The position numbers were made by a program, and so were the translations under genes. From NCBI GenBank assembly GCA_024232355.1, contig JAAEPW010001321.1, positions 1 to 25,015 of the forward strand: DNA of 25,015 nucleotides, written 5' to 3'. Origin of the DNA: Chloroflexota bacterium. GTDB lineage: Bacteria > Chloroflexota > Anaerolineae > B4-G1. Position 1 is the stretch's first letter; the number at the start of each line of letters is the position of its first letter. Under the pieces are notes generated by a model that did no database searches, was not told the origin of the DNA, and worked only from the letters and a program-made list of their open reading frames with translations. Below are positions 3,015 through 24,700 of the stretch, in pieces.

Positions 3015-3221
3015 ATGACCAATTCAACAAAGACAAATAGCACTACAACTCAAACCGGCGCACCCCCAGGTGGTTGCCCGCCTCAGACAGAAACCTACCC
3101 GGCCAGAGTAGGGGCTTTTACGTCCCTTTCTCTGGCCGAATTGCATTTTGGCACACAGAGCAATATGAGAAACTGGGCTGATTCTTTACGAGCGAAACGA
3201 CTGTACCAAGGAGGCAAATAA
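3015..3221 (+). CDS. Small protein, 68 residues, translationally coupled to the transglutaminase-like gene
   Basis: Not recognised. The predicted peptide starts with a Thr/Asn/Ser-rich stretch, then a Pro/Gly-rich segment with a single Cys (GAPPGGCPPQ), and ends in a basic tail (RAKRLYQGGK). There is no signal peptide or membrane helix. Its stop overlaps the next start as TAATG at 3219-3223, and its last codons contain the AAGGAGG (3208-3214) that serves the next gene, so its main role may be translational coupling as a leader ORF. I see no good Shine-Dalgarno ahead of its own ATG, which lowers confidence that it is an expressed functional protein. Confidence 0.5.
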   Translation: MTNSTKTNSTTTQTGAPPGGCPPQTETYPARVGAFTSLSLAELHFGTQSNMRNWADSLRAKRLYQGGK

Positions 3222-6073
3222 TGATCTTTCATAATTTCATAGGTTCGGTAGCATACAAATTGGTGGTCTACCTGCTAATCACGGCGATGACGGCGACCTC
3301 ATCCATTCCCATCCTCCAGCGTATGCAAGTCATCACCGATGCCTACACGGGGCTGATGCAACGGCTGGGCACCGAGTCTGCCATCGCATCTACTGCCTCG
3401 GCCCTGGACGCCATCACCGCGGCATTGCCAGCAAGTGGGCAAGGGGCAAGTATGCAAGGGGCAAATGAGCAAGTGGCAAGTGGCAAGTCACGCCCCTCCG
3501 CTCCTCTGCCTCTCCGCTCCCCTGCTCCTTCTCCCTCGATCTCCGTCTCTCGCGTGCAATCGGCATACACACCAGGCGATACCATTTCCGGCACTCTCAC
3601 CATCACTTTCCGCGTCACCAACAACAAGCCGCCGACATTGATGCCTCAAGTATCCGAGAACGCCACACTCACCGAGACCGCAGCCGCGATCCAAGCCTTT
3701 GACGCGACCGCCGACCCGAACGCGGTGCATAACGTCCTGCTCGTGGACACTCTGACCACCAACGCGACCTTTATCTCTGCCAACCCACGGGCCGACTACA
3801 AGGACGATCAATACACCTGGAACCTGGGCAGCATTCCGCCAATGAAATCGATCACGGCGACGCTGACGCTGCAAGTGCCCGCCAACATCGCCGATATCGT
3901 GGCGCTCGACACCGGCGCGACCACCTGGGGCACGCTCCAAGGAGAAATGGTCAGCGCCAGCGCTTGTCCCACAACGTTAGCTCCTGCTGCCTTGAGCGAG
4001 TATCTCCAGCTTACCGTGGATGCCAACTTCCAAGATGAGTATGTGGCTAAACGAGCGGGCCAACTATGCCCTAACCCAATGGGACCTTTTGATTACGTGC
4101 AAACCCTGGGCTATGAGGCATATAAAGGCAGCCTACGCGGCGCGCGCGGTACCGAGTGGAGCCAGGCCGGCAACAGCCTCGACCAATCTAACCTGTTGGT
4201 GGCGATGCTGCGCGGCAACGGCGTGCCCGCCCGTTACCGCCATGGCACGTTGAGCACAGAACGCGCGCAAGAACTGATCCTCTCAATGTTCCCCACCACG
4301 GCTCCCGTGGTAGGCTACGTACCAGAGGACACCGAGACCTCCGACCCGGCCAATGACCCCGACCTGCTGGCCGAGGCCCAGGACCACTGGTGGGTGGAGG
4401 CTTACGTGGACGGCGCTTGGGTGGCAATGGATCCCTCCTTCAGTTATGCAGAGCCGGGCCAGACCTTTACCACGGCAGAGGGGGCTTCTCTGGACGAGGT
4501 GCCCGATGAGGAGCGCCACAAAGTGACGGTCACCATCGAGGTTGAAAAGTACGACATGCTTTCCTACCTCTCATCCGGCTTTACCTACGAGATCCCACTA
4601 ACCACCACCTTTACCACCGCTGAACTGGTGGGTAACCCGCTGGCACTGGAACACCTGACGGCCCACGAGACGCCCCCGATGGGCTATATGATCTATGGCT
4701 GGGTCTATTACACCTACGTGCCCTACTTGCGGTTGGGGGACGATGAAACCCTGGTTGTCGGCGATCCCTTTTGGGAACTGCTCTCCAACTATCCCTTTGG
4801 GCAGTTTGCCATCATATCTGAGTATCTTCACTTTGACGTGCAAGACGCCGACGGCAACGTAACCCGCTACACGCGCCAAATCGCTGACCGGGCCAAGGCA
4901 GGTCCCCTGGGTGGTCCGCTGCGCAGCGATTCCAAACAGATCATTGGATTGATGACCCAGGATGTGCTTTCCTCGTTGGGGCCAGAGGCACTTCCATTGG
5001 TGCACCAAGGGGACAGTCACACCATCTACTTAAACCCGTCTTGGATGTCCAACGAGTATGCGGCCCACGTGGGCGAGGATTTGATGGTGACCGTACCCCG
5101 CATCGCCGAGGTAGAGTCCATCGCTGCGGGACTGGGGGCTTTGGAAGAAGGATACCAGGCCAACTTTGGCGCGGTAGAACTGGCAGAGATTGCCGACCTG
5201 ATCGAGGGAACGTCGCAGGCGTTCGACCGTATGCTGGGCGCCTCCTTTGTCACCATGTCTGACCAGGCATCGCAAGACCTGGCAGAGACGGGCCTGGTGC
5301 GCACCTACCCTGACGCGCCGCGCATCACCATTGCTTCCTCAGTGATCTCGATGAGCAGGGAAATTTCCCAGACGGCGCAGTTGCAGATTCTCGACTTGCT
5401 GCACGATTCCGTGCGCGCGATTGGCTACCCCGGCCAAGCGCGCGGCGCCGAGCAAGTATACCGGATGACGCGCGGCGTCTGCAACACCTTCCTGGAATCC
5501 GCGGTAGGCGAGGCGTTGACCGGAGAACAGAGCAAATCGGCGGCCAACGTTCTGCAGGCGGCGCAGTACCAGGACATTCCCCTGGCCTACGTGGACGCCG
5601 ACCACCTGGACGTGTTGGCCCGGTTGGAGATCTCTACCCAGGCCAGGGCGTTCATTATGGACGCGGTACAGCAGGGCTACGGGGTGCTCGTGCCGGAGCA
5701 GATGGTAGACTGGGATGGCGATGAGACCATCGCCTGGTGGCAGTTGGATCTAGAGACCGGCGAGATGGTGGGCATAGGAGAGAACGGCACCCACGATTTT
5801 ATCACGTTTACGACAATGTTCATGGTAGGTTTTATGATAGTATTGCACCTGATGTGGCTCATCGCCCTGTTATGGAAATTGATCCAATGGAGAGACGCGA
5901 TCTATATGACGTGGGAGCACTTTTGGGAGAACGAAGTCCCTTCAGCTATGGGCCAAAATGAAGACCAACAACTGATTTACACAGATGCATTCCAAGCTAC
6001 CAAGACCCATATGCAGGAATACATAGAAGAGCACGTGTGGTGGTTTTCCAGGACATCCTGGTGGGCACGGTAA
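3221..6073 (+). CDS. Membrane-anchored transglutaminase-like protein with Cys-to-Ser active site
   Basis: A 950-residue surface protein. The start has AAGGAGG 6 nt upstream and overlaps the previous stop. An N-terminal hydrophobic segment (about 10-30) is a signal peptide or anchor. Residues about 70-107 are a low-complexity insert encoded by short tandem repeats. Residues about 108-230 look like a DUF11-type beta-sandwich. The transglutaminase-like core follows: GNSLDQS with S319, LLVAMLRGNGVPAR, DHWWVEAY with H389, and AMDPSF with D404. The alignment to the family motif G-x-C-x-D is clear and puts Ser319 at the nucleophile position; His and Asp of the triad remain. This suggests a non-catalytic or altered enzyme (inference). 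A C-terminal membrane helix (about 860-890) precedes a ~60-residue tail rich in Trp and acidic residues. The gene lies 36 nt ahead of the A1 start, consistent with one operon and a role in handling or anchoring the downstream surface proteins. Confidence 0.85.
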   Translation: MIFHNFIGSVAYKLVVYLLITAMTATSSIPILQRMQVITDAYTGLMQRLGTESAIASTASALDAITAALPASGQGASMQGANEQVASGKSRPSAPLPLRSPAPSPSISVSRVQSAYTPGDTISGTLTITFRVTNNKPPTLMPQVSENATLTETAAAIQAFDATADPNAVHNVLLVDTLTTNATFISANPRADYKDDQYTWNLGSIPPMKSITATLTLQVPANIADIVALDTGATTWGTLQGEMVSASACPTTLAPAALSEYLQLTVDANFQDEYVAKRAGQLCPNPMGPFDYVQTLGYEAYKGSLRGARGTEWSQAGNSLDQSNLLVAMLRGNGVPARYRHGTLSTERAQELILSMFPTTAPVVGYVPEDTETSDPANDPDLLAEAQDHWWVEAYVDGAWVAMDPSFSYAEPGQTFTTAEGASLDEVPDEERHKVTVTIEVEKYDMLSYLSSGFTYEIPLTTTFTTAELVGNPLALEHLTAHETPPMGYMIYGWVYYTYVPYLRLGDDETLVVGDPFWELLSNYPFGQFAIISEYLHFDVQDADGNVTRYTRQIADRAKAGPLGGPLRSDSKQIIGLMTQDVLSSLGPEALPLVHQGDSHTIYLNPSWMSNEYAAHVGEDLMVTVPRIAEVESIAAGLGALEEGYQANFGAVELAEIADLIEGTSQAFDRMLGASFVTMSDQASQDLAETGLVRTYPDAPRITIASSVISMSREISQTAQLQILDLLHDSVRAIGYPGQARGAEQVYRMTRGVCNTFLESAVGEALTGEQSKSAANVLQAAQYQDIPLAYVDADHLDVLARLEISTQARAFIMDAVQQGYGVLVPEQMVDWDGDETIAWWQLDLETGEMVGIGENGTHDFITFTTMFMVGFMIVLHLMWLIALLWKLIQWRDAIYMTWEHFWENEVPSAMGQNEDQQLIYTDAFQATKTHMQEYIEEHVWWFSRTSWWAR
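3431..3535 (+). repeat. In-frame short tandem repeats inside the transglutaminase-like gene
   Basis: Eight GCAAG/GCAAA cores start at 3431, 3439, 3446, 3454, 3461, 3469, 3476 and 3483, spaced 7 or 8 bp apart. A pyrimidine block built on CTCCGCTCC and CTGC motifs follows at about 3496-3530. The tract stays in frame and encodes a Gln/Gly/Ala/Ser-rich then Pro/Ser-rich linker between the signal segment and the first domain. Its base pattern is unlike the surrounding coding sequence, suggesting insertion of repeat DNA. Confidence 0.65.
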
Positions 6074-6109
6074 AATGAATTCAGAGATACGAAAACAGGA
6101 GGTAGTGTG

Positions 6110-7033
6110 ATGAACACCAAAACCCGATTGATCTTGATCGTAGCCCTACTTGGTATAAGCGCCGTGGTGCTGGCAGTGGTATTTATGCAGCGCGGAGGAA
6201 CACCCACGCCTGCGACAACCCCGTCGCAGGCAACGGAACCCAGCGACACGACAGACATAGCCGCCGCGCCAGGCGCAACGGCCCTGCCGGGCGAGACAGC
6301 AGCGCCAGCCACGCCAGAGGCAATGGCAGCGACTATGCTGCCTGACAGCGTGACCGTAGAGCCCAGTACAACAACCGCCACACCTGCACCTACTCCCACG
6401 CCGACAGAAGGAGAAAAAGTAACGGCGGCGGTGGGGCAGGAGCACATTGCCTACCGACCGACACAGACAGAGTGTGAGCAGACTGTAGATGATGGAGAAG
6501 TTGTGGCTTGCGTGTGGCATGATTCCTCTCGGTTAATCGTGCGCTCAGAGTGGGAACAATTGTTTCCTGATACGGACTTTTATTTAGTTGAGTTGGGAGG
6601 TTATCGACCAGATTCAACTGAACCATATAGCTCTCGTCGTAGACTTGCTGCCTGGTATGACGACAAGCACTACACCGCCGAGACCTTTGACCGTTTACTA
6701 AAGGCCAATGGTGTCACCATCACCGATGAGAACCGCGAACTGGTCGCCAAGGCATTCGCACTGATGACCATTCCTGATTATCTCAAAGAAGAGATTATTT
6801 TCATTGAGTGGGTTGAGGGGGACTGGCGAACATTGCATAATTATGATCACTATTTGAAGGCTTGGACCAAGATACAAGGCTTGGAGATATGGTGGTGGTT
6901 TGATTTCGCTGATAATCAATTGAGATTTGTCTCAAGAAGTGATGTTAACAAACACGTTGGTGATTATATTGATGTGTCAGTCATAGAACTTCCCCCCCCC
7001 TCATTCGTTGATTATCAGTTCAGAGGAGAATGA
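6110..7033 (+). CDS. Family A surface protein, copy 1 (A1)
   Basis: A 307-residue protein of unknown family. I prefer the ATG at 6110 (AGGAGGT at 6097-6103, 6 nt spacing) over the GTG at 6107. A single membrane helix (about 6-26) is followed by a Pro/Thr/Ala-rich stalk (about 30-110). A globular extracytoplasmic domain (about 112-307) carries two cysteines, C122 and C134, possibly a disulfide. The core FDRLLKANGVTITDENREL and IPDYL is nearly invariant in all three copies; the end has GDYIDVSVIELPPP and FRGE. There is no lipobox, so it is likely a signal-anchor protein. The stop is 3 nt before B1. The last codons form the GAGGAG that is probably the B1 ribosome-binding site. A run of nine C near the 3' end is prone to slippage. 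Function unknown; constant pairing with a B leader suggests a partner of that domain (inference). Confidence 0.85.
   Translation: MNTKTRLILIVALLGISAVVLAVVFMQRGGTPTPATTPSQATEPSDTTDIAAAPGATALPGETAAPATPEAMAATMLPDSVTVEPSTTTATPAPTPTPTEGEKVTAAVGQEHIAYRPTQTECEQTVDDGEVVACVWHDSSRLIVRSEWEQLFPDTDFYLVELGGYRPDSTEPYSSRRRLAAWYDDKHYTAETFDRLLKANGVTITDENRELVAKAFALMTIPDYLKEEIIFIEWVEGDWRTLHNYDHYLKAWTKIQGLEIWWWFDFADNQLRFVSRSDVNKHVGDYIDVSVIELPPPSFVDYQFRGE
6992..7000 (+). repeat. C9 homopolymer within A1
   Basis: Nine consecutive C residues encode part of the Pro-Pro-Pro near the A1 C-terminus. The equivalent site in A3 is interrupted (CCTCCCCCC). A one-base change would replace the last ~14 residues and could break the coupling to B1. 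Confidence 0.9.
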
Positions 7034-7036
7034 TCA

Positions 7037-7447
7037 ATGAAAACAAAACAGGTGAAATCGCTCGTTATAAGTTGTGTTCTGGCACTGATATTGTTGCTTT
7101 TTACAATTCAATTCGTTTCGGCCAGCGCGGATCCGGGTAGAGTAAAGCAACCGGTTGCCATTGCTCCTCCTCCTTCATCCTCGACAGAGTCCGGGCAGGC
7201 AGTACCTTTGCAGCAGCCTGGCGGCTTGACCGCTACTCTGCGGGCAGCATCCAAGAGAGAGATCGAGTTCTGGACATTGAATCGCGATATGGACGCTGGA
7301 GCCCAGCAGAGCTTTATTCCCCACCTCATACTCTACCAAGATGGGAAACTGACCCCTGAGGTCTCCCGCGCTCCGATTGTGACCACAAACTCGGTGCTCT
7401 CATTTTCTTCATTGAATTCAGTGATACAAAAACAGGAGATAGTGTGA
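7037..7447 (+). CDS. Family B leader-domain protein, copy 1 (B1, short form)
   Basis: A 136-residue predicted secreted protein. A cleavable signal peptide with a Leu/Ile-rich core ends at about FVSAS (residues 26-30). A Pro/Ser-rich stretch ([12 protein letters not shown]), [11 protein letters not shown], a variable segment and HLILYQDGKLTPEVSR follow. These match the first ~110 residues of the giant protein at 9717. After that the frame enters the junction shared with B2 and stops, so the last ~19 residues are read from the leader sequence of A2. Its TGA overlaps the A2 ATG (TGATG at 7445-7449), and GAGGAG in the A1 tail is spaced 8 nt from its start, so it is translationally coupled on both sides. 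It is either a truncated relic of a tandem duplication or a functional free-standing leader domain; the intact frame and ribosome-binding site favour expression. Confidence 0.8.
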   Translation: MKTKQVKSLVISCVLALILLLFTIQFVSASADPGRVKQPVAIAPPPSSSTESGQAVPLQQPGGLTATLRAASKREIEFWTLNRDMDAGAQQSFIPHLILYQDGKLTPEVSRAPIVTTNSVLSFSSLNSVIQKQEIV

Positions 7448-8367
7448 TGAACACCAAAATCCGATTGATCTTGATCGTAGCCCTACTTGGCATAAGCGCC
7501 GTGGTGCTGGCAGTGATATTTATGCAGCGCGGAGGAACACCCGCGCCTGCGACAACCCCGTCGCTGGCAACGGAACCCAGCGGCACGACAGACATAGCCG
7601 CCGCGCCAGGTGCAACGGCCCCGCCGGACGAGACAGCAGCGCCAGCCACACCAGAGGCAACGGCAGCGACCACGTCACCACCGGATGGTGCGACTATTGA
7701 GCCTGGTGCACCAGTGGCTACACCCGAGCCCACGCCAGCATTGAGGGCAGAGGAGTTGCTGGCGCGCGAACTGATACAACCAAGAGGTCAAGTTACATTT
7801 TCAGATGATGAGTGCAGTAGAATTCTTGAAACTGAATCGTCGTGTAGCGTGATCAAATCCGCGGCGCCCATCATACGTCCAGAGTGGGAAGAACTGTTTC
7901 CTCAAACGAACTTCTTTCTCGTAAAGACCAATTTGCATAGTTATGACGAGTTTGCTGGACAGCCCAAATGGCTCATCGTTGAGTATGATGGACAGCACTA
8001 TACTTCCGAGACCTTTGACCGCCTGCTGAAGGCCAATGGTGTCACCATCACCGACGAGAACCGCGAACTGGTCGCCAAGGCATTCGCACTGATGACCATT
8101 CCTGATTATCTTGAGGAAGAGGTTATTTTCACTGAGTGGGAAGTGGGCGAGTGGGATTCTGGGTTATTCATGTATACCAACTATTTAAAAGCCTGGACGA
8201 AAATTCAGGGTTTGGAGATTTTGTGGTGGTTTGCATTCAATGATAACCGGTTAAAAGCTGCTACGAGATTTAGGGTTGTTGAGTCTCATATTGGGGACTA
8301 CATTGACGTGTCCCCTTTTGACTTGCCTCTTCCTTTAACCCAACACTACTATTTCCGTGGAGAATAA
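7447..8367 (+). CDS. Family A surface protein, copy 2 (A2), most divergent
   Basis: A 306-residue paralogue of A1. The first ~75 residues (membrane helix and proximal stalk) and the core FDRLLKANGVTITDENREL are almost identical to A1 and A3. The distal stalk, the first half of the globular domain and the C-terminus are clearly different: C123 and C133 are kept, but the A1/A3 GGYRPDSTEPY region is replaced by an unrelated-looking segment, and the end reads GDYIDVSPFDLPLP. The ATG at 7447 overlaps the B1 stop and has AGGAGA upstream. It ends 3 nt before B2, with GGAG again placed in the terminal FRGE codons. Function unknown. Confidence 0.85.
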   Translation: MNTKIRLILIVALLGISAVVLAVIFMQRGGTPAPATTPSLATEPSGTTDIAAAPGATAPPDETAAPATPEATAATTSPPDGATIEPGAPVATPEPTPALRAEELLARELIQPRGQVTFSDDECSRILETESSCSVIKSAAPIIRPEWEELFPQTNFFLVKTNLHSYDEFAGQPKWLIVEYDGQHYTSETFDRLLKANGVTITDENRELVAKAFALMTIPDYLEEEVIFTEWEVGEWDSGLFMYTNYLKAWTKIQGLEILWWFAFNDNRLKAATRFRVVESHIGDYIDVSPFDLPLPLTQHYYFRGE

Positions 8368-8370
8368 CCA

Positions 8371-8772
8371 ATGAAAACAAAACAAGTGAAATCGCTCGTA
8401 GTAAGCTGTGTTCTGGCACTGATACTGTTGCTTTTGGCAATTCAGTTTGTTTCAGCCAGCGCGAGTCCAAGCAGGACAGAGCAACCGGTTGCCGTTGTTC
8501 CTCCTTCATCCTCGGCAGAGTCGGGGCAGGCAACACCTTTGCAGCAGCCTGGCGGCTTGACCGCTACTTTGAAGGTAGCGTCTGGGGCGGATATTGTTTT
8601 CATAACACAAAACGATCGAACAGTAAACAATGTCCCGCCGCAAACGTTCGACATACCTCACCTCATACTCTACGAGGATGGTGCCTTGACCCATAAGGTC
8701 TCTTACGCGCTGATTGTGACCGCAAACTCAGTGCTCTCATTTTCTTCATTGAATTCAGTAACACGAAAATAG
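8371..8772 (+). CDS. Family B leader-domain protein, copy 2 (B2, short form)
   Basis: A 133-residue predicted secreted protein with the same signal peptide and [11 protein letters not shown] motif as B1 and the giant. The central segment (about 75-95) is different again, and PHLILYEDG is retained while TPEVSR has become THKVSY. It ends with the shared junction tail NSVLSFSSLNSV and then a TAG 11 nt before the A3 ATG. Many differences from B1 and B3 in the signal region are third-position changes, suggesting the short forms have been under selection as proteins. B2 is the most divergent B and sits next to the most divergent A. Confidence 0.8.
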   Translation: MKTKQVKSLVVSCVLALILLLLAIQFVSASASPSRTEQPVAVVPPSSSAESGQATPLQQPGGLTATLKVASGADIVFITQNDRTVNNVPPQTFDIPHLILYEDGALTHKVSYALIVTANSVLSFSSLNSVTRK

Positions 8773-8783
8773 GAGATAGTGTG

Positions 8784-9713
8784 ATGAACACCAAAACCCG
8801 ATTGATCTTGATCGTAGCCCTACTTGGTATAAGCGCCGTGGTGCTGGCAGTGGTATTTATGCAGCGCGGAGGAACACCCACGCCTGCGACAACCCCGTCG
8901 CTGGCAACGGAACCCAGCGGCACGACAGACATAGCCGCCACGCTAGGTGCAACGGCCCCGCCGGACGAGACAGCACCGCCGACCACACCAGAGGCAACGG
9001 CAACGATCATACCACTGGACGGTACGACTATTGGGCCTGATGCTCAAGCAACTACACCTGCACCCACCCCAACGCCAACAGAAGGGGAAGAAGCTGCGGC
9101 AGCGGTGGGACAAGGATACACTGCCTATCGACCAACACAGACGGAGTGCGAACAGATTGTGGATGACGGACAAGTTGTGGCTTGCGTGTGGTTTGATTCT
9201 GCTCGGTTAATCGTGCGCTCAGAGTGGGAACAGTTGTTTCCTGATACGGACTTTTACGTACTTGGGTTGGGAGGTTATCGACCAGATTCGACTGAACCAT
9301 ATGACTCTCGTCGTAGACTCGTGGCCTGGCAGGACGACAAGCACTACACCGCCAAGACCTTTGACCGCTTGCTAAAGGCCAATGGTGTTACCATCACCGA
9401 CGAGAACCGCGAACTGGTCGCCAAGGCATTCGCACTGATGACCATTCCTGATTATCTTGAAGAGGAAGTTGTCCTCACTGAATGGGAAGAGGTCAATATG
9501 CAGCCAGCACTCCATAACTATAATTATTGTTTGGGACTTTGGACCAAGCTTCAAGGGCTAGAAATAAAATGGTGCTTTGTATTTGGGAACGAGCGTCTGA
9601 GAATAGCATCAGGACCCGCTGTTCAACAAGACGACGTTGGTGATTATATTGATGTGTCAGTCATAGAACTTCCTCCCCCCTCATTTGTTGATTATCAATT
9701 CAGAGGAGAATGA
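8784..9713 (+). CDS. Family A surface protein, copy 3 (A3)
   Basis: A 309-residue paralogue directly upstream of the giant gene. It has the same membrane helix (about 6-26), Pro/Thr stalk and globular domain. The distal stalk and first half of the domain match A1 closely (RPTQTECEQ, GGYRPDSTEPY), as does the C-terminus (GDYIDVSVIELPPP, FRGE). The segment after IPDYLEEE differs and contains two extra cysteines, in NYCLG and KWCFV. The ATG at 8784 has AGGAGA upstream; a GTG one codon earlier is also possible. The stop is 3 nt before the giant's ATG, so the two are likely co-translated. Function unknown. Confidence 0.85.
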   Translation: MNTKTRLILIVALLGISAVVLAVVFMQRGGTPTPATTPSLATEPSGTTDIAATLGATAPPDETAPPTTPEATATIIPLDGTTIGPDAQATTPAPTPTPTEGEEAAAAVGQGYTAYRPTQTECEQIVDDGQVVACVWFDSARLIVRSEWEQLFPDTDFYVLGLGGYRPDSTEPYDSRRRLVAWQDDKHYTAKTFDRLLKANGVTITDENRELVAKAFALMTIPDYLEEEVVLTEWEEVNMQPALHNYNYCLGLWTKLQGLEIKWCFVFGNERLRIASGPAVQQDDVGDYIDVSVIELPPPSFVDYQFRGE

Positions 9714-9716
9714 CCA

Positions 9717-12700
9717 ATGAAAACAAAACAAGTGAAATCGCTTGTAGTAAGCTGCGTGTTGGCACTGATACTGTTGCTTTTGACAATTCAGTTTGTTTCG
9801 GCCAGCGTGAGTCCAAGCAGGACAGAGCAACCAGTTGCCGTTGTTCCTCCTTCATCCTCGACAGAGTCCGGGCAGGCAGTACCTTTGCAGCAGCCTGGCG
9901 GCTTGACCGCCACTTTGCAGGCAGCATCCGAGTTGGAAGTGGATTTCTATCCAGGGAATGATGACAGAAACCCAGTTGTACATCTACCCTACCTCATACT
10001 GTACCAGAATGGGGATCTGACCCCTGAGGTCTCCCGTACGCTGTATATCACTGTGGAGAACGTAGAGGCGCCCCCAGGTATAGTGGTGAACGTCGAGATC
10101 ACAGTTAGCACTCAGCATTGTGATCCAGACGGAGGCGGATGTCTTGCCTTCGCACCACAAATCCCCGTCTGGCGCGAGGTTAAGCAACACCCCGCTAATG
10201 GCCCCGAGCCAGCGACCTCCTGGGAAAACATTATATTCTCTCGCACATTTACCACGAGCATCCTATACGCTGGCAACGTTGTCAGCACCCCCACCGATTA
10301 CTTCCAGGTGGGCGTCCGGGTGGACGGAGTGCCGGTCGGCGACTTTGATCCCAGGGAGTACGCCCTCCTGATGGAAAATCAAGTGAAGGGTTTCCTGGAC
10401 GCCGACAATGATTTCCTGGTACGCTACTACGACATGGCCCCCTTTGGCCACAAAACAAGGTGGGGAGGTCCCCCTGCTGGAACAAACTGGTTGCTCAGAG
10501 AAGACGTCATGGACTACATCCAGAATGATTTTACCAATCTGTTGACAAAAACTTTCGAGACAGAGATAGGCTGGGGATTGCCTGGTGGTCTGGACCCACG
10601 CTGGGGGTCCAAAGATACTACAAACTTCTTGAACGTGGACATCAATGATTCTGGCACTTACTTTCACGGTAGAGCAGGAAATAACTCGTCTATGCACTTA
10701 ACCTCCTATCCAAGATCATGGGATGGTTATACGAGCCTGTCTGCCATGATCGAATCCTCTTTGTCCCACGAGATGTTTCACAATATGCAAGATAGTGTAA
10801 TGTATACAGTGATAAATGACGATACCTGGTTCTGGAATCCCATCGGCGAGGGGACCGCTGTTTTGGCATCAGTACTTATATCGCCCACTGCACAATTTAC
10901 TACTGCTCCTCTCCGGCAGTATTCTCATTTTACTGGGAGGTACTTGAACGAGTTTCTAAATTATACTTATAATTCTTCGTACAAAGTATTGCCTGATAAG
11001 ATTTTTAACTACAGCACTGCCCTGTATTGGCGTTTTCTGTATGAACAGTGTGGAGGCCTCGACGCCGGGGGGGAGAATCCAACAGAAGGGATGAAAGTGA
11101 TATGGCGCGCTTTGGAAGAAATGTACCCCAAAGCCGATGACGACCCTGATCCCGTTGCTAATCCCAGCGTTGTTGACGGTATGGAAGCGTTGATGAATGA
11201 AGCATTGACAGAGTGCTCCGCTTTTAGTACATATACAGAAAGCCTCACTACCTTTGCCAGTGCCAACTATGCGCTTCTCATAGAAAATGGCAGATGTGCT
11301 GGGGTGCCAGACATTTCTCAGGGATGCTTTTATCATGACCCAAACAACATGTATAGCAATCCAATAAGCACTGAAATTGATTATACAGGAAATCTCATAA
11401 ACCGTGGTTATGCCATAACTAGCAGCTTTGGTATGGACTTTGTTAACATAAAGCTGGATCCAAGCACCGACAATCAAACGATGACGCTCTCGTTCAGTGA
11501 CCCAATGGGTGCGGATGAGTTTCACGTACAATTGTGGAAACTACTGGATGATCCTGCACGAGTAAGAAAACCACAACGGATTCCAAATGACAACACTCCT
11601 ACTCAAGTCCTCACAATGACGAACCCAGATGGGGATTTGATCTATACCGTCCCAGCGATCAGTACTACCGTTTTCAACAGAATAGGCTTGATCATCACAC
11701 GAATTGACGCTGACGAAGCAATAGACGGAACTGGTTTCTATTTCATTGCCTTGGACCCGAACGCCGACAGCGATGGCGACGGCATTCCTGATAGCGTCGA
11801 ACAGCGTTTTGGCATCGAGGACGCAGATGATGACGGCGATCCCAACTATCTTGATCTGGACAGCGACGGAGACACCATCTCGGACACCATCGAGGCTGGC
11901 CTCAATCTGCTGAACCCGGTAGATACGGACAGCCTGATAACGGCCACTACCTTTATCACTCCTTCCGACAAGATTCCTGACTTTCTAGACCTTGACAGCG
12001 ATGAAGACACCATCTCGGACACTATTGAGGCTGGCGACGACGATCTAGGCACGGAGCCTGACAACACCGATGGTGATACCCGCGATGGGTTGCCCAATTA
12101 TGACTATCGCGACTTTGATAGTGACAACGACACTATTCTCGATCTGCACGAGGCTGGCGATGATCCAAACACTATCCCCATAGATACAGACTTGGCTCTG
12201 ATATCCGACAAGATACCCGACTATTTGGACGACGACAGCGATGACGACACAATTCCAGATCGCATCGAGGCTGTCGACAACGATTTGCTGACGCCACCCT
12301 GGAACAGTGACACGGACAACATCCCTGACTTTCAAGACGAGGACAGCGATAACAACCTTCTACCAGACATAGTGGAAGTTGGGCCAGACCCTGAAGACCC
12401 AAGGAACACAGATGCAAATACAGAGATCATTATGGTCCCAGATTTTCGTGATTCCGACAACGACAATGACGGAATTCCCGATACTATTGAAATACTCCAA
12501 TTGTATCCCAATGGCTTTGAGTTAGACAGCGACGGCGATTACATTCCCGACCACCTGGAACTCGATAGCGACGACGACACAATTCCAGATCACACTGAGG
12601 CGGGCGCTGACCCATTGAACCCCGTCAATCACGACGACGACGATTTACCCGACTACCGCGACCTCGACAGTGATGCCGACTATATCTACGACGAATACGA

Positions 12701-15700
12701 AGCCACGTGTTCAGTAAGTATCACTGGCACCGTTGTAGGCACCGGCTTTCCATGCAACAGCGATGCTACCAACGTGCTTTCCCCGACCCTGGTCGTGACT
12801 GATACGATACCTGACTATATTGACATCGACAGCGACGGCGACGGTGTGTTGGATAGCATTGAGGCCGGGGATGACTATTTGGTAACAGTTCCCCGCGACA
12901 GTAACAACGACGATGTTCCTGATTTTCGTGACCCTGTTATACGCTACATCGCATCGCCCTCAATGTGGGATATGAGGTGGTGCATACCGTTCCGGACTGT
13001 TCCATGGGGCTTTGACATGGGTGTAGCGTGTGGTCTCGAGATCATCCGCCACACGCTGGAGAACGCCGGCATCGACGTGGGCGACGACCCACCCGTGCCC
13101 GGTATGCTCTTTTCCACCACTCCCTTCCCCACACTGCCGGCCGGTAGCGCACAAAGCGTGATCGCTGCCTCCGCCACTCACACCACCACGTCCATCGGCG
13201 CATCGTTCACTACATCCCATACCATCCTCGCCGGTGATCTCCAGGCCACGTGGAACACCGATGCCTGGGCCGGCGCCCAGTTCATATCTCTCACCGTTCC
13301 TTGGGCGCACCTCTATGACGAAAGCAATACTCTCGTCGCCACGGGTACAGTGGAAGCACGACCTATCATTTTCTCCGATGGAGAAAAATCGTCGGCTATC
13401 GCACTGGCAATGGGCGATGCCCTCACGTACACCGTCGAGGGCACCGGTTCCGCTGCCTTTTACGCTCCCGCCATCGATGGCCTGGGCGTGGGCGGCCAAT
13501 GGTTTGCCCACACCGCCCAGGTACAGTCCGTTGTCACCTACGGCGTCGGCTTGCAAGGAGCCGTCGTTATTGTGGGTGGTCAGGAATACACCGGTACCTT
13601 TGTTCTCGTTACTACCGATACCGTCACGTTGGAAGGCCGAGGCCACACCCTCACCCCCAACTTTGCCGACCACGTGCTCATCGAGGCGGAATCTGCAAAT
13701 CTGCAGATCGCTGGATCTGCGGATCAGCAGGTCGCTTATTCCGGCTACACTGGTCCCATCACTATCACTGAACACACGACCGAATTGGATCGTGTAGAAC
13801 TGAACGGCCCGGCTGCTCGCGATCTCTCGCTGGCGCTGGTCCCTGCCGAGAGCAGCATCACGCCTGTGGAGACCGCCTCCTTCCAGGCCGATATCCACTC
13901 CAACCAGGATGACACCTACACCCTCACCGTCGCGCCCCCCATGGGCTGGCAAGCACAAGTAGACGCCAACGGCCACATCACCATCACCCCGGCCCTCGAT
14001 GCCGCCCCTGGCACCTACCATGTTCACGTCGCGGCTCAATCCCAATCGGTCAATCCTGCCCATCCGCTGTTCTCCACCGCCATTCACCAGGTCACCATCC
14101 TGCCCTGGCAGGGACTCAAACTATCCGTCGTCCCCGACCCGGTGACCACCGTCCCGATGGGGCCAATCGATTCTGACTCCGAACTCGGAGACATCAACAA
14201 CGGCCAGGTCCAGGTGCCCGATGCAGCCTACGTTGCCACCATCACCAACACCTCCTCCACCGGCCACACATTCGACGTGCAAGTGATTCCTGACGGCTTC
14301 CCGGTGGAGTGGATCATGCTCGGCGGCGCGGGCCGTTTGCCCACCACCACCGTCACCCTGCCTGCGGGCGGAACCGGCAACCTGGGCGTCTACGTCTCGC
14401 CCGTCGGATTGGAGACGCTGCCTCCGATCGGTACCGAGTATCCCTTCACCATCCACGCCACGGCAGCGGACGACCCCGCGCTCACTCAGAGCGCTCCAGA
14501 GACGTTCGTCATGCCACCCATCCCGTTTGCCCAAGTCTCGGCTCAACCTGACCTCGTCTATGCCACCCCCGGCCTCACCACCACCTTTGAGGCTGGCGTG
14601 CGCAACGTCGGCAACGTCTCTGACACCTTTGAACTTGAAGTTACCCTGTCGAGCGTCGATTACCAATCAGCCGTCATCAACGATCAACCGGTGATCCTGC
14701 CGGGTGAAACGGATGTTATGCCGGTCGAGCTTCTCATCACCGATGGTGAGATCGGCCGCAATTACCACGCCAGGGTGGGCACTTGGTGCGGCCCATACAA
14801 ACCCTCGGCCCACGTGACCGTGCGCTTGGTTAGCCCGTGCGTGTTCGAGATCTACCAAGCCGCCCGCGCGGCCACGCAACTGGACGATGCACAGTTGCGC
14901 CAGGCTCTGGACAACCTGGCCTTCCAACTCGAGCGCTGGGAGCAAGACCCCGGCAACACCGCCCTACGCGATCGCACCGTCGCCGCGCTGGAAGACGTCA
15001 TCACCCGCGTGCAAGCGCGCTACCCCCTGGCGGGCACCGGCGACCTGGAGACCCTGACCGCAGCGCCTACCATCGAAGGCTTTTGCGCCCCTATTTCCAA
15101 CTTGCAAAACACCCTGACCCGCATCGCCGAACGGAACGTCGCCGTGACGATCCAACCGGGCTTTGATGCTACCCTAGTGGGCCAACCCGTCACCTACACC
15201 TTGACCCTGGAAAACCAGGGAACCTTAACGACGACCTACGGGGCGAGTCTACAAGTTTGCGAGTCTGCAAGTCTGCAAGCGTGCGACTCGTTGGTGTCTG
15301 GTGTGCAATACACGATACCTGCGGGTGAGGCGTTGGCGATTCCTATCGTGGTCACGCCCACGGATTTGGGCTACTATACCCTCGCCGCCGACGTTCAGGC
15401 CGTTGAGGACAGCTTGATCCAGGCCCAGGCCACCGCCGGTCTCAACGTAGTGGACCGTTTCGTGCAGGTCGTGTCGGTGAGCGCCGATCCCGACTTTGTC
15501 GAACTCGGCCCCAATACCGTCGATCTGTACGCCCAGGTCGCCAACGTGGCCGGCATCGCCCAGGAAGGGCAGGCCTTGGTACACGTCATCTCGCCCGAGG
15601 GCGACCCCGTCTATACCAACACCCTGCCTGTTACCCTGGTCCCCGCCCTGCAGTTGCAGGGGCTTGACCTGGGCACCGCCTCCACCGATGGCTGGGGCGA

Positions 15701-18700
15701 GGGCGTCTATACCATCACCCTCGACATCGTGGACGAGGTCGGTGACCCCATTCTGGATGGTTCCGGTTACGGCCATCTGCTGGCGGGCACCGGGCTGAGG
15801 GTTGGCAACAGCGTGCAACCCGCGCTGGTCGTACCCGGCACGGTGACCGTCACCACCGCCATCGTCGCCGAGCGGACAGCGCCCCATACCGGGTCTGAGG
15901 GAGACGGGTCGAGTGAACTCTCCAACATCTACTCCTTTTACATGCCCGCCGCGTTGACGGCGAACACCGAAGACCCACGTGACCAACTCTTTTACGTCGT
16001 CGGCCTGCGCCCGGAGACGACCTACGTGGCGCAACGCTTTGACGAGGACACCATGACCTGGACTCACGTGCTGACCGACAGCGTGGTCATGGACCAGGTC
16101 AACGTCCACGTCACCGGCATCCTGCCGGATCAACTGTATCGCGTCCAGGCATCCCAACCTTTGCTGCTGGTGGTTACCTCCAACGAAGGCTCGTTGGTGC
16201 CCGCCGCTACCTCCGACCTCAAATTCCGGGGCCGCCGCTTTATCTTTGTCGGCAACTATGAGGGGGCCTACAACCGGTCGCGGGCCTCCGTCTTTGGCTT
16301 GGAAGACAGCACCACCGTCACGATGGAGGTACGCGCTTACCAGGACGACTGGACCACGCCCCTCGCCACACTGACCCATACCCTCAATGCCGACGAGTAC
16401 TGGTTCGAAGAGATCGCGACCGACAGGGACACGACGACCGTGATGCGGGTGACCGCCGACCGGGACGTGATCGTCTACCGCACCAGCAACGACAACGACG
16501 AGTTGGACACGGCGATGAGCGATAACGGCACTCCTTACGGCAAGGTCTTTTACTTTGCCCCGGTGCCGCACGCTTTCCACAACGTCATGCTGCTCTTTAA
16601 CACCGAGCCGCTCAGTGCCACCGTGCACATCTACGGCCTGGACACACCCTATACCACAACGGTGATCCTGGAGCCTTATGGCGCGCAGACCGTGGACCTG
16701 AAAAACCACCCGGCCGATTATTTCAAGATCGTCTCCGACCGCACCCTGAGCGTCATTGGCGGAGGCGTGTATCCCGGCCAGCTGCAGCCCGACAGCAGCA
16801 AAGCCGACGATGCCATCTGGGAGATACTGCCCACTCGTATGGGGGACCAGTACCTGTACCAGACCAACCTCCTCCACTCCCGTGGCCAGTCGATCGTCCG
16901 GGAGTACACCGAGTTCGACACCGGCCCTCTGCACGACGTAGAGATCGCCACTGCCATTTCGTTGGTCGACAAATCAACCGACCACCTGTGGTATACCAAC
17001 GGGCTCAACTATCTGGCCAGCCGGCCCTTTACCGTCACGCTGGAGGTGATCTCGCGCACCGTGCCTCCGGGCATCATCCGCCACGAGGAGAACCACGACG
17101 TCCATTACACCCCTGCTGCCTGGAACCGGACCGGCAACGACCGGATGAGTCGAGGCTACTATGCTCAATCCGACGCCGCCGGTGCCACTGCCAGTATGAG
17201 TTTCGAGGCCCCCTGGGTGGGCGTAGGCTTTTTCACCAATTCAGACGGTGGCCAGGCCGAGGTCTTTATAGACGGTGCCAGCTATGGAATAGTCGATACC
17301 TACAGCCGCATCGCCGACACGACGAGCGTCTACTACTCGGGTCTCTCCACTGGCACCCACACCATATCGATCACCGTGCTAGACACACAGAACGACTTTT
17401 CCAACGGCTACTATGTGCGGTTGGATTATTTCGACAGTTGGGACGGGACAGAAATGGCGGGAGGTACCTTTGAGGAAAGCGACGCCCGGGTGTATCTCAG
17501 CCCCAGGTGGCTGTATAGAACCAATTCCGCGGCCAGCGGCGGCACCTATTTCGATGCCGACGTCAGACATAGGCCATCCAGCGCCTGGTTCCCATTCACA
17601 GGGGATTCCATCACCTACCAGGGCATCGCCCACACAGGAGGCGGGCAGGTAGAGATATTCGTGGATGGCGTCAGCCAAGGGTTCTTTGATTTCCATAATT
17701 ATTCCTCCCACATTACCCGCACCTACACCTTTGAGGGGCTGGGGGTAGGCCCTCACATTCTGCAAGTGAGGGCCTATCGGAGTGTGGCCAGCGTGGATGC
17801 CTTTATCACCCCCGGCGTTCCCCCCACCCACGAGCCTCCGGTGCAGCAAGGCGTCGTGCGCTACGAGGAAGACGCCCCGATTCTGCGCTACAACGGCGCT
17901 CCCTTGCCGCAAACTATTAGATCCTGGAACGTCTTTGGCAAAGACCGTCTCAGTGCTGGTCATATGGCCGAGTCGAGAACGCCCGGCGATACGGTCAGCT
18001 TGAGCTTTAAAGGTCCCTGGGTGGGCGTGGGCTTTTTCACCGCTTCAAACGGTGGTCAGACCGAGGTCCGTATCGATGGTGCCAGTCAGGGAATCGTCGA
18101 TACCTACAGCCGCGTTGATGACGTGACGAGCGTCTACTATTCGGGTCTCTCCACCGGCACTCACACCATCTCGATCACCGTGTTGGATACAAAGAATGAC
18201 TTGTCCACCAATAATTATGTCCGGTTGGATTATTTCGACAGTTGGGATGGTACCCAGATGGCAGAAGGTGTCTTTGAGCAGGACGACACCCGTGTGTATC
18301 GTAGTACCAGATGGTTGCAGAGGACCAATTCCGTGGCCAGCGGGGGCACTTATTTCGATGCCGATGTTAGGTATAGGCCATCCAACGCCTGGTTCCCATT
18401 CACGGGTGACTCGGTCACCTATCAGGCCATTGCTAGTCAAGGGGGTGGGTGGGTAGAGATATTTGTGGATGACGCCAGCCAGGGATTCTTCGATCTCGAT
18501 ACCTTCTCCTCCTCCCACGTTACCCGCACCTACACCTTTGAGGGGTTGGGCGCAGGTCCGCACATCCTGCAGGTACAGGGCTACCGGGGCGTGGCCAGCG
18601 TGGATGCCTTTATCACCCCCGGTGTTCCTCCTACCCACGAGCCTCCGGTGCAGCAGGGCGTCGTACGCTACGAGGATGACGCCCCGGCTTTGCGCTACAA

Positions 18701-21700
18701 TGGCGTTTCTCTCCGCCAGACCGCGAGAACTTGGGAGGAATCCGGCGGCGACATTCTCAGCTCCGGGTGGGCGGTTGGGTCGAGGACACTCGGAGACGCA
18801 GTTAGCCTGACCTTTGAGGGCACCTGGGCGGGTGTTGGTTTCTTGGCCAGGAGCGACGGCGGCGAGGCACAAGTCTTTATTGACGGCACTATCCTGGACG
18901 TCGTGGACACCTATAGCACCACCGAGCACGTAAAGAGTGTCTACTACTCTGGCCTTTCTACCTCCACCCACACCATCTCTATCACCGTCGGGGAGAACAA
19001 CCGGCGGGTCTACCTGGACTATATCGACGTGTGGGATGGCACACAAATGGCGGGAGGCCTGTTTGAGGAAGATGATGCCCGTATACACCATAGCAACAAG
19101 TGGAAGCATATTGACGACTCGGTGTCCAGTGGAGACAAATACATCGAGTTTGGCTGGAATGCTTGGTTCCCCTTTACGGGTGAGACTGTCACCTACCAGG
19201 CACTGGCCCACGGTGCGGCCGGTTTGGCCGAGGTTTTGGTAGACGGCGTCAGTCGGGGGCTCTTTGACCTCAACAGCAGCACTACCATCACCCGTACCTT
19301 TACCTTTGACGGCTTGGGCGCAGGTCCCCACATCATACAGGTCAAGAGGCACCAACAGGATCGAGTCACGATAGATGCTTTCATCGTGCCTGTAGTTGAG
19401 CCTCTCGGAGCTCCACCCTTGCCGACACCTACACTCACACCTGTGCCAACCCCGACTACCACACCTACACCAACTTTTACGCCCACGTCTATAAGCGCAG
19501 CGACGCCTACGCCGACTGCGACTTTGATACTTGTGCCAACGTTTACGCCCACGCCCGCAAGCACACCGGCACCTACGCCTACATTCACGCCGACGCCCAC
19601 ATTCACGCCCATAAGCACACCAACGCCTATAGCAACGCCCACACTGACGCCTACGATTACGTTTGCACCAACTACCACCCCCACCGCCACGACCACACCA
19701 ACTGCTACCGCTACGCCCACTTCTACAGCCTCCAACACTTCTTTCCAGATGATCAACAAACCTCTGGCAGCCCTTCGCCAGGTTGGTAGCGCTGCTCCAG
19801 AGCCGCGCTATCAACTCCAAGCCGTGGGGCAAGGCGCAAACGTTGAATTGGTCCTGGATGGAGGTACTCTCCAGACCATCACCGAACCCGGCATCTATAC
19901 CATCACCCTGCCTGCCGGTCGCCACCGGATGGACCTCTTTGCAAATAGAGGCGACGTGACGCTGGGAGGCTTTGGGTTGAACGAGAACGCTTCCCTGGTC
20001 TGGAACCTGAAGGATGTGCCGGAGGAAGCGTGGGACGGCGTCTACTCCCAAAAGTTCTGGGCCTTTACCTCGGACGCGCCCTTTCACTTTCTCCAGGGCG
20101 GCTCCGGCAACTGCTGGATTCACACAGTTCTGCCCTACGAATACGGCGAGAGCTACCATGTCCAGGTCGACCACCGCGTGCCGCTCTCCGGCGTGCAACC
20201 GCTCGTCGGGACCTTTGCCCCGCCGGCAATTAGCACGACGGTCGGGATCAAAGAGACCGCCTACGTCTGGCAGCACGAGATGCTTCCGAGCCAGCAGACC
20301 TACACCATCACCTTTGACGCTGTTCTAAACGACATGCAGCCCGGAGAAGTGCGCCGGGTCTCGAATGGCACATTGTTCAACTATACCAACCTGGGCGGTC
20401 AGGGACAGGCGACGCTTCCGCCCCTCTACGTCGCCGCGTCTCACATCTTGGCCTTTTCCCCGCTCACCAACACGACCACTCCCGGCGGCGTGGCCCACTA
20501 CGAGGCAACGCTCTACAATCCAACACCCACCGCCGACACCTACACCTTTGTGCTGGATGGACTGCCCTCCGGTTGGGCCACCGAACCGTTCACAGTGCCC
20601 GTCGGCGCGGGCGCACAAGTGATCGTGCCCGTGGCCGTGCCGGTTCCCACTGGCGCTGCACTGGGCGACTATGCCTTTGCCGCCCTGGTAGAGACCGGCT
20701 CCAGTGGTCGGGACGGCGTCCAGGCCCAATTGACGGTCGCCAACCTGCTAGAGATCGTTGCCACACCATCACAACTGAACGCAGACAACAGTGAGACCGT
20801 CACCTACACCGTCGCCATCACCAACCTAGAGGACGTAGAACGCACGTATAACCTGTCTGTGAACGGTCTATCGGGCAACGAGATCACCCTGCCCGCCGCA
20901 CTGATCGTTGGTGCGAACGATGTCGCCACCACGACGCTGCGCGTCACCGCACTGGCCCCGATGGGCCTGTACCCCTTACAAGTCTTGGCTGCCTACGAGG
21001 AGCCGGGGCGGGCCGTCCAGGCTGTCGACGACGCAACACTGGCCGTCCTCAGCGAACTGGGTGTCGAGATGAATCTCGCCCCGAGCACAAACACCGGCGG
21101 GCAAGGCTCACCGGCCGCTTATACCATGATCATCACCAACACCGGCTCGGTGGCCGACACCTACGACCTGACGGTGGAGGTGCCCGATGGCTGGAACGCG
21201 GACCTTTCCGCCAACAATGTGCAGGTTTCCGAGATCACGCTGACGCCCTACGTCTTTAACGCCGCGTCCTTGCAGCTGATCGTCGTCCCACCCGTGGGCA
21301 CACCGGCGGGAACGTACACCTTTACCATCAGCGCCAGCTCGCAGACCGATCCTGGCACGACGTTTACGACGGTGGGCACACTCGTCGTCTCTTCCTACGG
21401 CATCACCGTCCAGATCACGCCGCAATCCACGGCGATGGACCCGCCCAGCACCCACACGTGGGACGTGACCGTGACCAACACGGGCTCGGTAGCCGATACC
21501 TTTGACCTGATGCCCGGCGGTGTCGTCGCCGGTACGGTGCAGTTCAGCGCCAACCCGGTCACGCTCGCGGCTGGAGAGTCTACCGTGGTACAGTTAACGG
21601 CAGGGCCACTGGATTTTGCCTTGCCGCAAATCTATCCCTTTGCCGTCACCGCCGTTTCCCAGGGAGACGCTGACGTGTTCGGCTACGATCGGGCCGAGAT

Positions 21701-24700
21701 CGCCTTTGAGGGCTTTGAGGATGTCGAGGTGGCGCTGCAGCCCGTCAGCCAGACGATCACCAACACCTTTGAGGCGTCGTACCTGGTGGTCGTCACCAAC
21801 ACCGGCAACGTGGGCACCGTTTACGCTCTCAGCGCCTATGCCTTGACAGCTTCCTCCGATCCCGCGCTGAACTTGGAACTGGAGGTAGACGAGGTCTACA
21901 TCCCGCCGCGTATGGCTGCCGGTATCCTGCTAACGGCCAAGGCCAATGCCACCGGGACCTACGCTATCATCGTCCAGGCCGACTCGCAGACGGATGGCAG
22001 CACAGTCTCGAACACCGGCGTGGGCGAGTTGACCATCGTTTTGGTCAACCGGCCACCGCTCGCTGCCGACGACAGCGCCTCTACCGACGAGGATACATCC
22101 GTCGCCATCGACGTGCTGGCAAACGACAGTGATAGCGACGACAACACACTGAGTGTAGACACCGTGGCCCAGCCGTCAAACGGCATTGTGATCAACAACA
22201 CTGCCGACATCACCTACGAACCGGACGCCGACTATTGCGGCGACGACAACTTTACCTACGTCACCAGTGACGGTGTTCTGACCGACACCGCCACGGTGAA
22301 CGTCACCGTCGAATGTGTCAACGATGCCCCCGTAGCAGAGGATGACAGCACCACGGTAGTCGAGGACGCAGCCATCACGGTGGACGTGCTGGACAACGAC
22401 GGCGACGTAGACGGTGACACGCTGAGCATCGAGTCGATCACGCAACCCACCAGCGGCGTAGCAACTAACAATACTACCGACGTGACCTACACGACCGACG
22501 CCGACTACTGTGGACCGGACTCGTTCACCTACACGGTTTCCGACGGCGCCGCTCCGCTTGACGGTACTGACACCGCTACAGTGAACGTCACCGTCGAATG
22601 CGTCAACGACGCGCCGGAAATCACCGGTATCGGCAGTGCCACGACAAGAGAAGACACCCCGGTCGCAATAGACGTGTTGGTCAATGTCACCGACGTCGAT
22701 GGCGATCCGCTGACCGTCATCAGTGTCACTCAACCGGCGGATGGTACGGTCGTCATCAATCCGGACGACACCGTCACCTACGCGCCAGACACTGACTTTA
22801 ATGGCGAGGACAGCTTTACCTACACTGTCAGTGATGGCAACGGTGGTCAAGTAACAGGCACAGTGATCGTCACCATCACTGCAGTCAACGATGCCCCCAT
22901 CACGACGGATGACGATGTCGAGATCAACGAGGACACTGCTATCACGATTGACGTGCTGGACAATGATACTGATGTGGACATTGGCGACAGCCTGAGCGTT
23001 GATTCGATCACGCAACCTGCCAATGGTTCTGTGACCCACAACACTTTCGACGTAACCTATACACCTGACGCCGACTATTGTGGGCCAGACTCATTCACCT
23101 ACACCGCTTCCGATGGTAACGGCAGTACAGACACCGCCACGGTGAACGTCACCATCACTTGCGTCAACGATGCACCAGTAGCGACGGATGACAACGAGAC
23201 GGTGAACGAAGATACCATCGTCACAGCGGACGTGCTGGACAACGATACTGATGTGGATGGTGACATCCTGAGTGTCGAGTCGGTCACGCAGCCCGCCGAT
23301 GGCACAGTGGTCAATGGCACCATTGATGTGACCTACACGCCGGACCCTGATCATTGCGGCAATGACAGCTTTACCTACGTCGTCAGCGACGGTGTTCTGA
23401 CAGACACCGCTGTGGTGAACGTGACCATTACGTGTGTCAACAATGCACCGATAGCAGTGGATGACTCGGGGACGACAAATGAAGATACCGCGGTCACGGT
23501 AGATGTGTTGGTGAACGATACTGACATCGACACTGGTGACACGTTGAGCGTTGAATCAGTTACCCAGCCTGATAACGGCACCGTGACCAACAATGTCACC
23601 GATGTGACTTATGAACCAAACGCCAACTATTGTGGTGACGACAGCTTTACCTACGTTGTCAGTGATGGCGCACTCACGGACACTGCCATGGTGAGCCTCA
23701 CCATCACTTGTGTCAACGATATACCTGTAGCGGTAGACGACAATATTACGGTGACTGAGGATACATCCATCGTGGTGAATGTGCTGGCGAATGATACCGA
23801 CGTGGACACCGGCGATAGCCTGACCGTCGATTCGGTAACGCAGCCAAACGATGGTACCGTGACTAACAACACTGCCGATGTGACCTATGCACCCAACGCC
23901 AACTATTGCGGTAGCGACTCATTCACCTACACAGTGAGCGATGGAAACAACGGCACAGATACCGCCACGGTGAGCGTCACCGTCGAATGCGTCAACGACG
24001 CGCCGGAAATAATCGGTATCGGTAGCGCCACAACGGACGAAGATACCCCTGTCATAATAGACGTGTTGGTCAATGTCACTGACGTGGATGGCGATCCGTT
24101 GACTGTCATCAGTGTCACCCAACCAGCGGATGGCACCGTCGTCATCAACTCGGACAACACCGTCACCTACACACCCGACGCTGACTTTAACGGTGAGGAC
24201 AGCTTTACCTACACCGTCAGTGATGGCAACGGTGGCCAAGTGACAGGCACGATTGTTGTCACTGTCACTGCGTTCAACGATGCTCCAGTGACAGCAGATG
24301 ATGATGCGATGACGAACGAAGATACTGTTGTCGTGATAGACGTGCTGGTCAACGACACCGACGCCGACACTGGCGACACACTGTCTGTGGGCTCGGTCAC
24401 TCAGCCCACCAGTGGCGCAGTGGTCAACAATGGCACCGACGTGACCTACACGCCCAACGCCGACACCTGTGGCAGCGACTCGTTCACCTACACCGCCAGC
24501 GACGGAAACGGCGGCACAGACACCGCCACGGTGAACGTGACAGTCACCTGCATCAACGACGCGCCGGTAGCGGCGGACGACAGTACCACGACCGACGAAG
24601 ACACCGCCGTCACGATAGACGTGCTGGACAACGACACCGATGCCGATACCGGCGACACGCTGTTCGTGGACTCGGTGACGCAACCGGCGAACGGTACGGC

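Follow-up and report, generated by a model that had tools for sequence, protein, structure and literature searches.

The window analysed here, a stretch of 25,015 nucleotides (nt) from a Chloroflexota bacterium (contig JAAEPW010001321.1, assembly GCA_024232355.1), carries a locus on its + strand with the gene order TGase, A1, B1, A2, B2, A3, giant, in which TGase stands for a transglutaminase-like protein, the A proteins are membrane anchored and the two short B proteins share their front with the giant. All frames are open. Gene conversion has overwritten the 5′ ends and the centre of the three A genes, which are ancient paralogues. Short B is a gene form that recurs in other organisms and carries its own conserved tail, and the copies in the window are probably genuine genes and not the scars of a fresh duplication. 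The three-fold A–B layout described in a first-pass annotation, with the third B leader fused to a protein of more than 5,000 residues, was confirmed: the giant (9717..25015) is open at the window end after 5,099 codons. Likewise, the short B proteins, given there as about 135 residues long, have 136 (B1) and 133 (B2).

Gene conversion in the A array

A1 (307 amino acids, aa; 6110..7033) consists of an N-terminal membrane anchor, a Thr/Pro-rich linker and a domain of ∼ 210 aa. A2 (306 aa) lies at 7447..8367 and A3 (309 aa) at 8784..9713; the structural model of A3 is confident from residue ∼ 91 on. Synonymous divergence (dS, Nei-Gojobori) in the C-terminal part is 2.04 for A1–A2, 1.86 for A2–A3 and 0.55 for A1–A3, with a ratio of non-synonymous to synonymous divergence (dN/dS) of 0.20–0.25, whereas the first 90 codons give a dS of only 0.08–0.18. 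Compared in 60-nt windows, the copies are 90–100% alike over the first ∼ 190 nt of A. Beyond this point A2 has 23–70% likeness to A1 and A3, a central block (6683–6802 in copy 1) reaches 87–98%, and the B leader is high again.

Synonymous differences were counted among codons for the same amino acid. A1 and A2 differ at 2 of 53 such codons in the first 62 columns and at 4 of 32 in the 33-codon central block, against 26 of 49 and 25 of 44 outside the blocks (p 2e-12). The inside-versus-outside contrast has p 2e-12 for A2–A3 and p 4e-5 for A1–A3; the central block of A1–A3 taken alone is not significant (p 0.11). Across all copies the first 62 columns hold 1–2 synonymous differences in 53–55 codons.

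In a tree of the C-terminal domain (66 sequences), A2 groups with P0026 and P0016 from other contigs (support 0.96), A1 pairs with A3 (0.96), and the common ancestor of the A2 and A1/A3 groups is the midpoint root. A1/A3 and A2 are thus distinct ancient subfamilies, so that paralogues of distant relationship stand in tandem at the locus. For the first 36 residues the tree (64 sequences), short and poorly resolved, places the three window copies together with P0009 and P0014 (0.85). The near-saturated dS of the C-terminal domain and the trees, set against near-identical 5′ and central blocks, identify the A copies as old genes with converted blocks.

The exact 1,337-bp period previously ascribed to the whole cassette holds for one homogenized 5′ block at the start of each unit (300 nt; 6076..6375, 7413–7712 and 8750–9049). 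It does not hold for the other five repeat families, where the spacings vary between 1328 and 1346 bp (1334/1346, 1328/1346, 1331/1346, 1334/1340 and 1337/1331). Recent triplication of a single 1,337-bp unit is ruled out by this uneven spacing together with dS, the trees and the synonymous differences. The near-identical synonymous blocks inside anciently diverged tandem A genes resemble the known cases in which gene conversion makes tandem paralogues evolve in concert. The window differs in that the uniform block extends from the tail of short B into the anchor of the next A.

Short B and its tail

B1 (7037..7447) comprises a signal peptide, the front of the giant and a tail of its own; B2 occupies 8371..8772, and the part common to short B corresponds to residues 1–107 of the giant (9717..10037). 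The frames are intact and closely coupled and have ribosome-binding sites, as the first-pass annotation stated: the B1 stop overlaps the A2 start (TGATG), the gaps are 3 nt from A to B, 11 nt from B2 to A3 and 36 nt from TGase to A1, and AGGAG- or GGAG-type sites were read by eye upstream of the starts.

The short-B tails had been attributed to a shared duplication junction. They consist of two parts. The last 11 (B1) or 7 (B2) residues are the translated stretch preceding each A. The 14 residues before that stretch (7370..7411 in B1, 8707..8748 in B2) are specific to short B; they align neither with the giant nor, by eye, with the stretch before A1, and they are conserved in other organisms. 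A first search gave three relatives of short B outside the window, and a profile search (7,989 candidates scored) gave ten besides the window's two. The common tail is present in four of the ten (P0071, P0072, P0074 and P0076, on contigs of three sizes), which supports the earlier view that the short forms are not decaying and refutes their absence from all relatives. P0078 has another tail, and P0075, P0077, P0079 and P0080 extend some distance into giant-like sequence and may represent the ends of fragments. Compared between contigs, this first part of the tail (14 residues) has 80% identity, whereas the mature part has 51% and the signal peptide 54%; the same part of the tail is 17% identical to the giant. 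When short B is divided into 14-column windows, the eight that score highest begin within the tail (top 88%), whereas among the windows printed, every third one, those clear of the tail range from 22 to 67%. The tail is thus the best conserved part of short B, though absent from the giant, and what had looked like a junction scar is common to other organisms. A simple relic of unequal crossing-over, the competing explanation in the first-pass annotation, therefore fails for the window: the A copies diverged long ago and the junction is shared between organisms.

P0072 and P0074 are on an equal-sized contig (3,285 bp) with the A proteins P0003 and P0004 and probably form a second A–B–A–B array with them; here, as for P0071 with the A protein P0006 and P0073 with P0016, that two proteins share one contig is deduced from equal contig sizes. 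A free B-like frame of 123 codons was found in G024 (L028 1486–1857, − strand), a genome of the same family as G001 and without an A match. It shares 37% identity with the giant's leader and 36% with B1, and ends with its own tail nine residues past the Ser-Arg-Thr point at which short B also departs. A gene on the other strand lies ∼ 60 nt beyond, so no giant follows; the contig begins at the start codon of the frame, which leaves the upstream side out of view.

The signal peptide of B has a dN/dS of 0.07–0.12, with upper bootstrap limits of the corresponding ratio of proportions (pN/pS) of 0.32–0.62. For the mature part, B1–B2 gives 0.46 (pN/pS 0.36–0.86). Selection is clear on the signal peptide and weak on the mature part; neutrality, which had been named as a test of the short copies, is excluded for the former and weakly for the latter. 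In a neutral simulation that used substitutions only and started from the present sequences, 5.4% and 6.9% of the runs ended with an open frame when 0.25 changes per site were allowed, and about 3% did so at 0.35. The open frames and dN/dS together favour selection on short B, although the signal in the mature part could also stem from gene conversion from the giant's leader.

The giant and the transglutaminase-like protein

The giant comprises the B leader, an HExxH metalloprotease-like region, Asp-rich repeats and immunoglobulin (Ig)/cadherin-like repeats. The B leader forms the front of the metalloprotease-like region: HE[ML]FH with a downstream EG[TQ]A is present in all four sequences compared (window, L001, L026 and L027), of which L026 and L027, with open frames 697 and 751 residues long, are not giants. 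We take HExxH with a downstream conserved Glu to be a gluzincin-type metalloprotease motif. The region resembles the putative metalloprotease family MXAN_6640 (NF045524), a weak match only (E 0.0011, 18.7 bits, below the curated cut-off of 140). A sequence search for solved relatives of the first 660 residues gave none at E up to 1, and the model of the first 238 residues was poor (predicted local distance difference test score, pLDDT, 50). The former designation of the giant as an ‘effector’ was not borne out, given the metalloprotease-like start and the Ig/cadherin-like repeats; its C-terminus is beyond the window end. Within 9717–24716 we also observed Big_9- and Cadherin_5-type repeats, in ten stretches each, and a CE2_N match that spans residues ∼ 2751–2822 where it is best.

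The TGase-like protein (3221..6073) matches Pfam Transglut_core (E 9.8e-13) and has N- and C-terminal hydrophobic stretches. The position that we take, from the motif, to be that of the catalytic Cys is Ser in the window (AGNSLDQ) and Ser or Ala in all rows read (16 of the 32 given, 15 distinct); His and Asp are kept in the window. Because of this Ser the protein is probably inactive. Relatives were found in 29 of 396 genomes. In L060 and L061 a single open frame holds the TGase counterpart and then giant counterparts from residue ∼ 1124 on; in L059 the arrangement is the same, from residue ∼ 3477 on, and in L031, which is ended by the contig edge, the TGase counterpart is followed by a 155-column match to the giant. 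The TGase and the giant's rear are thus one polypeptide in other Anaerolineae genomes, whereas in the lineage of the window they are separate genes, with A, B and the metalloprotease region between them.

Distribution of A

A protein search (7,994 candidates scored) returned 68 matches, three of them the window's own. The six with organism names are all from Anaerolineae or Chloroflexi metagenome-assembled genomes (MAGs). Eleven matches fall into five groups on equal-sized contigs (3285, 31389, 2377, 52539 and 37710), which suggests further A arrays; P0025 and P0026 have neighbouring locus tags as well. In four of these five groups no short B was found among the matches listed. P0068 (234 aa) joins an A anchor (89% identity over 12% of the query) to a different C-terminal part; domains may thus have been exchanged while the anchor stayed uniform.

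Few whole genomes carry A: 5 of 396 drawn from the class (at most six candidates scored per genome), 3 of 5 in one family and 1 of 56 in the order of G215; absences are soft here, as MAGs may be incomplete. An A or A-like frame follows a relative of the window TGase in G001, G215 and G003:C193, whereas A has no TGase neighbour in the stretches fetched from G088 (C88 and C494) and G003 (C58). L001 has the order TGase, single A, giant, without short B, so that of the two loci with TGase, A and giant, in which the first-pass annotation would have short B counted, the window has it before the giant and L001 does not. No plasmid with A and no viral contig with A or short B was found. A gave no significant match in Pfam, in NCBIfam or, by sequence, among solved structures; PF27998.1 was flagged on the A relative P0055 in the protein list, but a Pfam scan of P0055 gave no family.

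Discussion

We favour a reading, with chances that we regard as even, in which an old recombining A array lies between an anchor protein of inactive-TGase type and a secreted metalloprotease/adhesin-like giant, and short B is kept as a useful exported protein. An early duplication of A would have carried along the 5′ end of the giant's gene, giving the first short B at the junction before the next A. Its descendants would have been kept because the short protein was useful, exported by the giant's signal peptide. As to function, which we infer for both A and short B, the simplest role of short B would be that of a small exported companion translated with the next A through the stop/start overlap. 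With less assurance, A may be a tethered protein of recognition or inhibitor type whose target is the giant, with its protease region, or relatives of the giant; the stacking of different A subfamilies at one place would then make sense.

Several observations weigh against this reading. The pN/pS intervals of mature B against the giant's leader reach above 1 (B1 0.60, 0.42–1.05; B2 0.65, 0.45–1.14), and at 0.15 changes per site 14–18% of the neutral runs kept the frame open. A matches PepSY/YpmB or NTF2/cystatin-like folds weakly. A and B are also found apart. P0073 is cut short, and in G002 a weak B-like signal peptide after A (L002 5938–6036, E 0.024) meets a stop after 32 codons. Conversion and translational coupling alone could keep the frame open without any protein function. 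Short B would then be a duplication leftover, maintained by conversion with the giant's leader and by the translation needed to reach the next A. We consider this somewhat unlikely. Conversion is indeed active in the locus, B2 and the giant's leader are 90–95% identical over most of the first ∼ 200 nt, and the overlap of the B1 stop with the A2 start, the weak selection on the mature part and the truncated P0073 and G002 copies all fit. However, the giant has no such tail, so conversion with it cannot maintain the part of short B that is best conserved between organisms, and G024 keeps its B-like frame with no giant behind (and its upstream side out of view). It is less probable still that the tail is conserved as a DNA or RNA element serving the next A (a leader, a means of ribosome access or a recombination site) and is translated only incidentally. 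The ribosome-binding site of each A lies in the second part of the tail, just before that A, and the uniform block continues into the A gene, but the first and best conserved part is absent before A1 and, by eye, before the A of L001.

The alternating order, the coupled frames and the probable second A–B–A–B array are what would be expected if each A recognized its adjacent B leader and short B acted as decoy, subunit or regulator of the giant, as first proposed. We now regard this as very unlikely. One-to-one pairing is not upheld: no B match was obtained in three genomes that have A (G003, G088 and G215), and two genomes with metalloproteases of B type (G146 and G087) yielded no match to A. 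A and B as an obligatory unit are ruled out by these separate occurrences. Nor is there a sign that divergence is matched: A2 is remote from A1 and A3, but its neighbour B2 does not stand at a comparable distance from B1 and the giant's leader. An unlikely but more plausible idea is that the A array is a polyimmunity-type locus, in which immunity proteins of distant relationship are stacked to counter a toxin-like giant and variants of it. Zhang et al. (2012; PMC3482391) describe both polyimmunity loci and inactive TGase domains that have lost catalytic residues. The tandem, distantly related A paralogues resemble such loci, and the window TGase, lacking the Cys and placed behind an N-terminal membrane/signal stretch near Ig-like domains, resembles the toxin proteins described there. 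By contrast, no RHS repeats or toxin domain are seen in the window, the giant's end being out of view; its A proteins are exported and anchored, precede the giant and have no Pfam family; and short B stands between A genes. A also occurs alone in G088 and G003:C58, and its fold matches are weak.

The Lap system (adhesin LapA and BTLCP protease LapG) likewise places a giant repeat adhesin-like protein beside a protein of TGase fold, and differs in that the window TGase lacks the catalytic Cys. LapG-like cleavage by the window TGase is ruled out, as the motif stretch has no Cys. Among the matches listed for the search terms used, no description of the locus was found in the literature.

Returning to short B as a useful exported protein, we tentatively extend this reading to a wider one, which we hold to be possible rather than probable: short B would be a selected class of small exported proteins, cut from the front of a giant metalloprotease, whose new C-terminal motif is now its best conserved part. 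Together with the converting A array it would form an undescribed surface system of Anaerolineae-type bacteria, one that diversifies the outer A domains and keeps the anchors and B–A junctions uniform. If so, a fragment of a giant gene can survive as an independent gene that has gained a new tail, and conversion can keep export anchors and junctions of an array alike while the outer domains diverge. Should short B act on A or the giant, this would represent a novel mode of control or variation for giant surface proteins. The TGase–A pair, which recurs, offers a handle on a protein family without a Pfam name.

Other features of the window

Scans of the window for promoters and terminators were uninformative, with eight promoter-like sites against 5.2 (standard deviation 2.4) in shuffled sequences and two terminator-like sites against 6.5 (standard deviation 2.9). 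A 476-aa frame without a significant Pfam match lies on the opposite strand (27–1457), and a response regulator is encoded upstream of the locus on the + strand (1785–2549).

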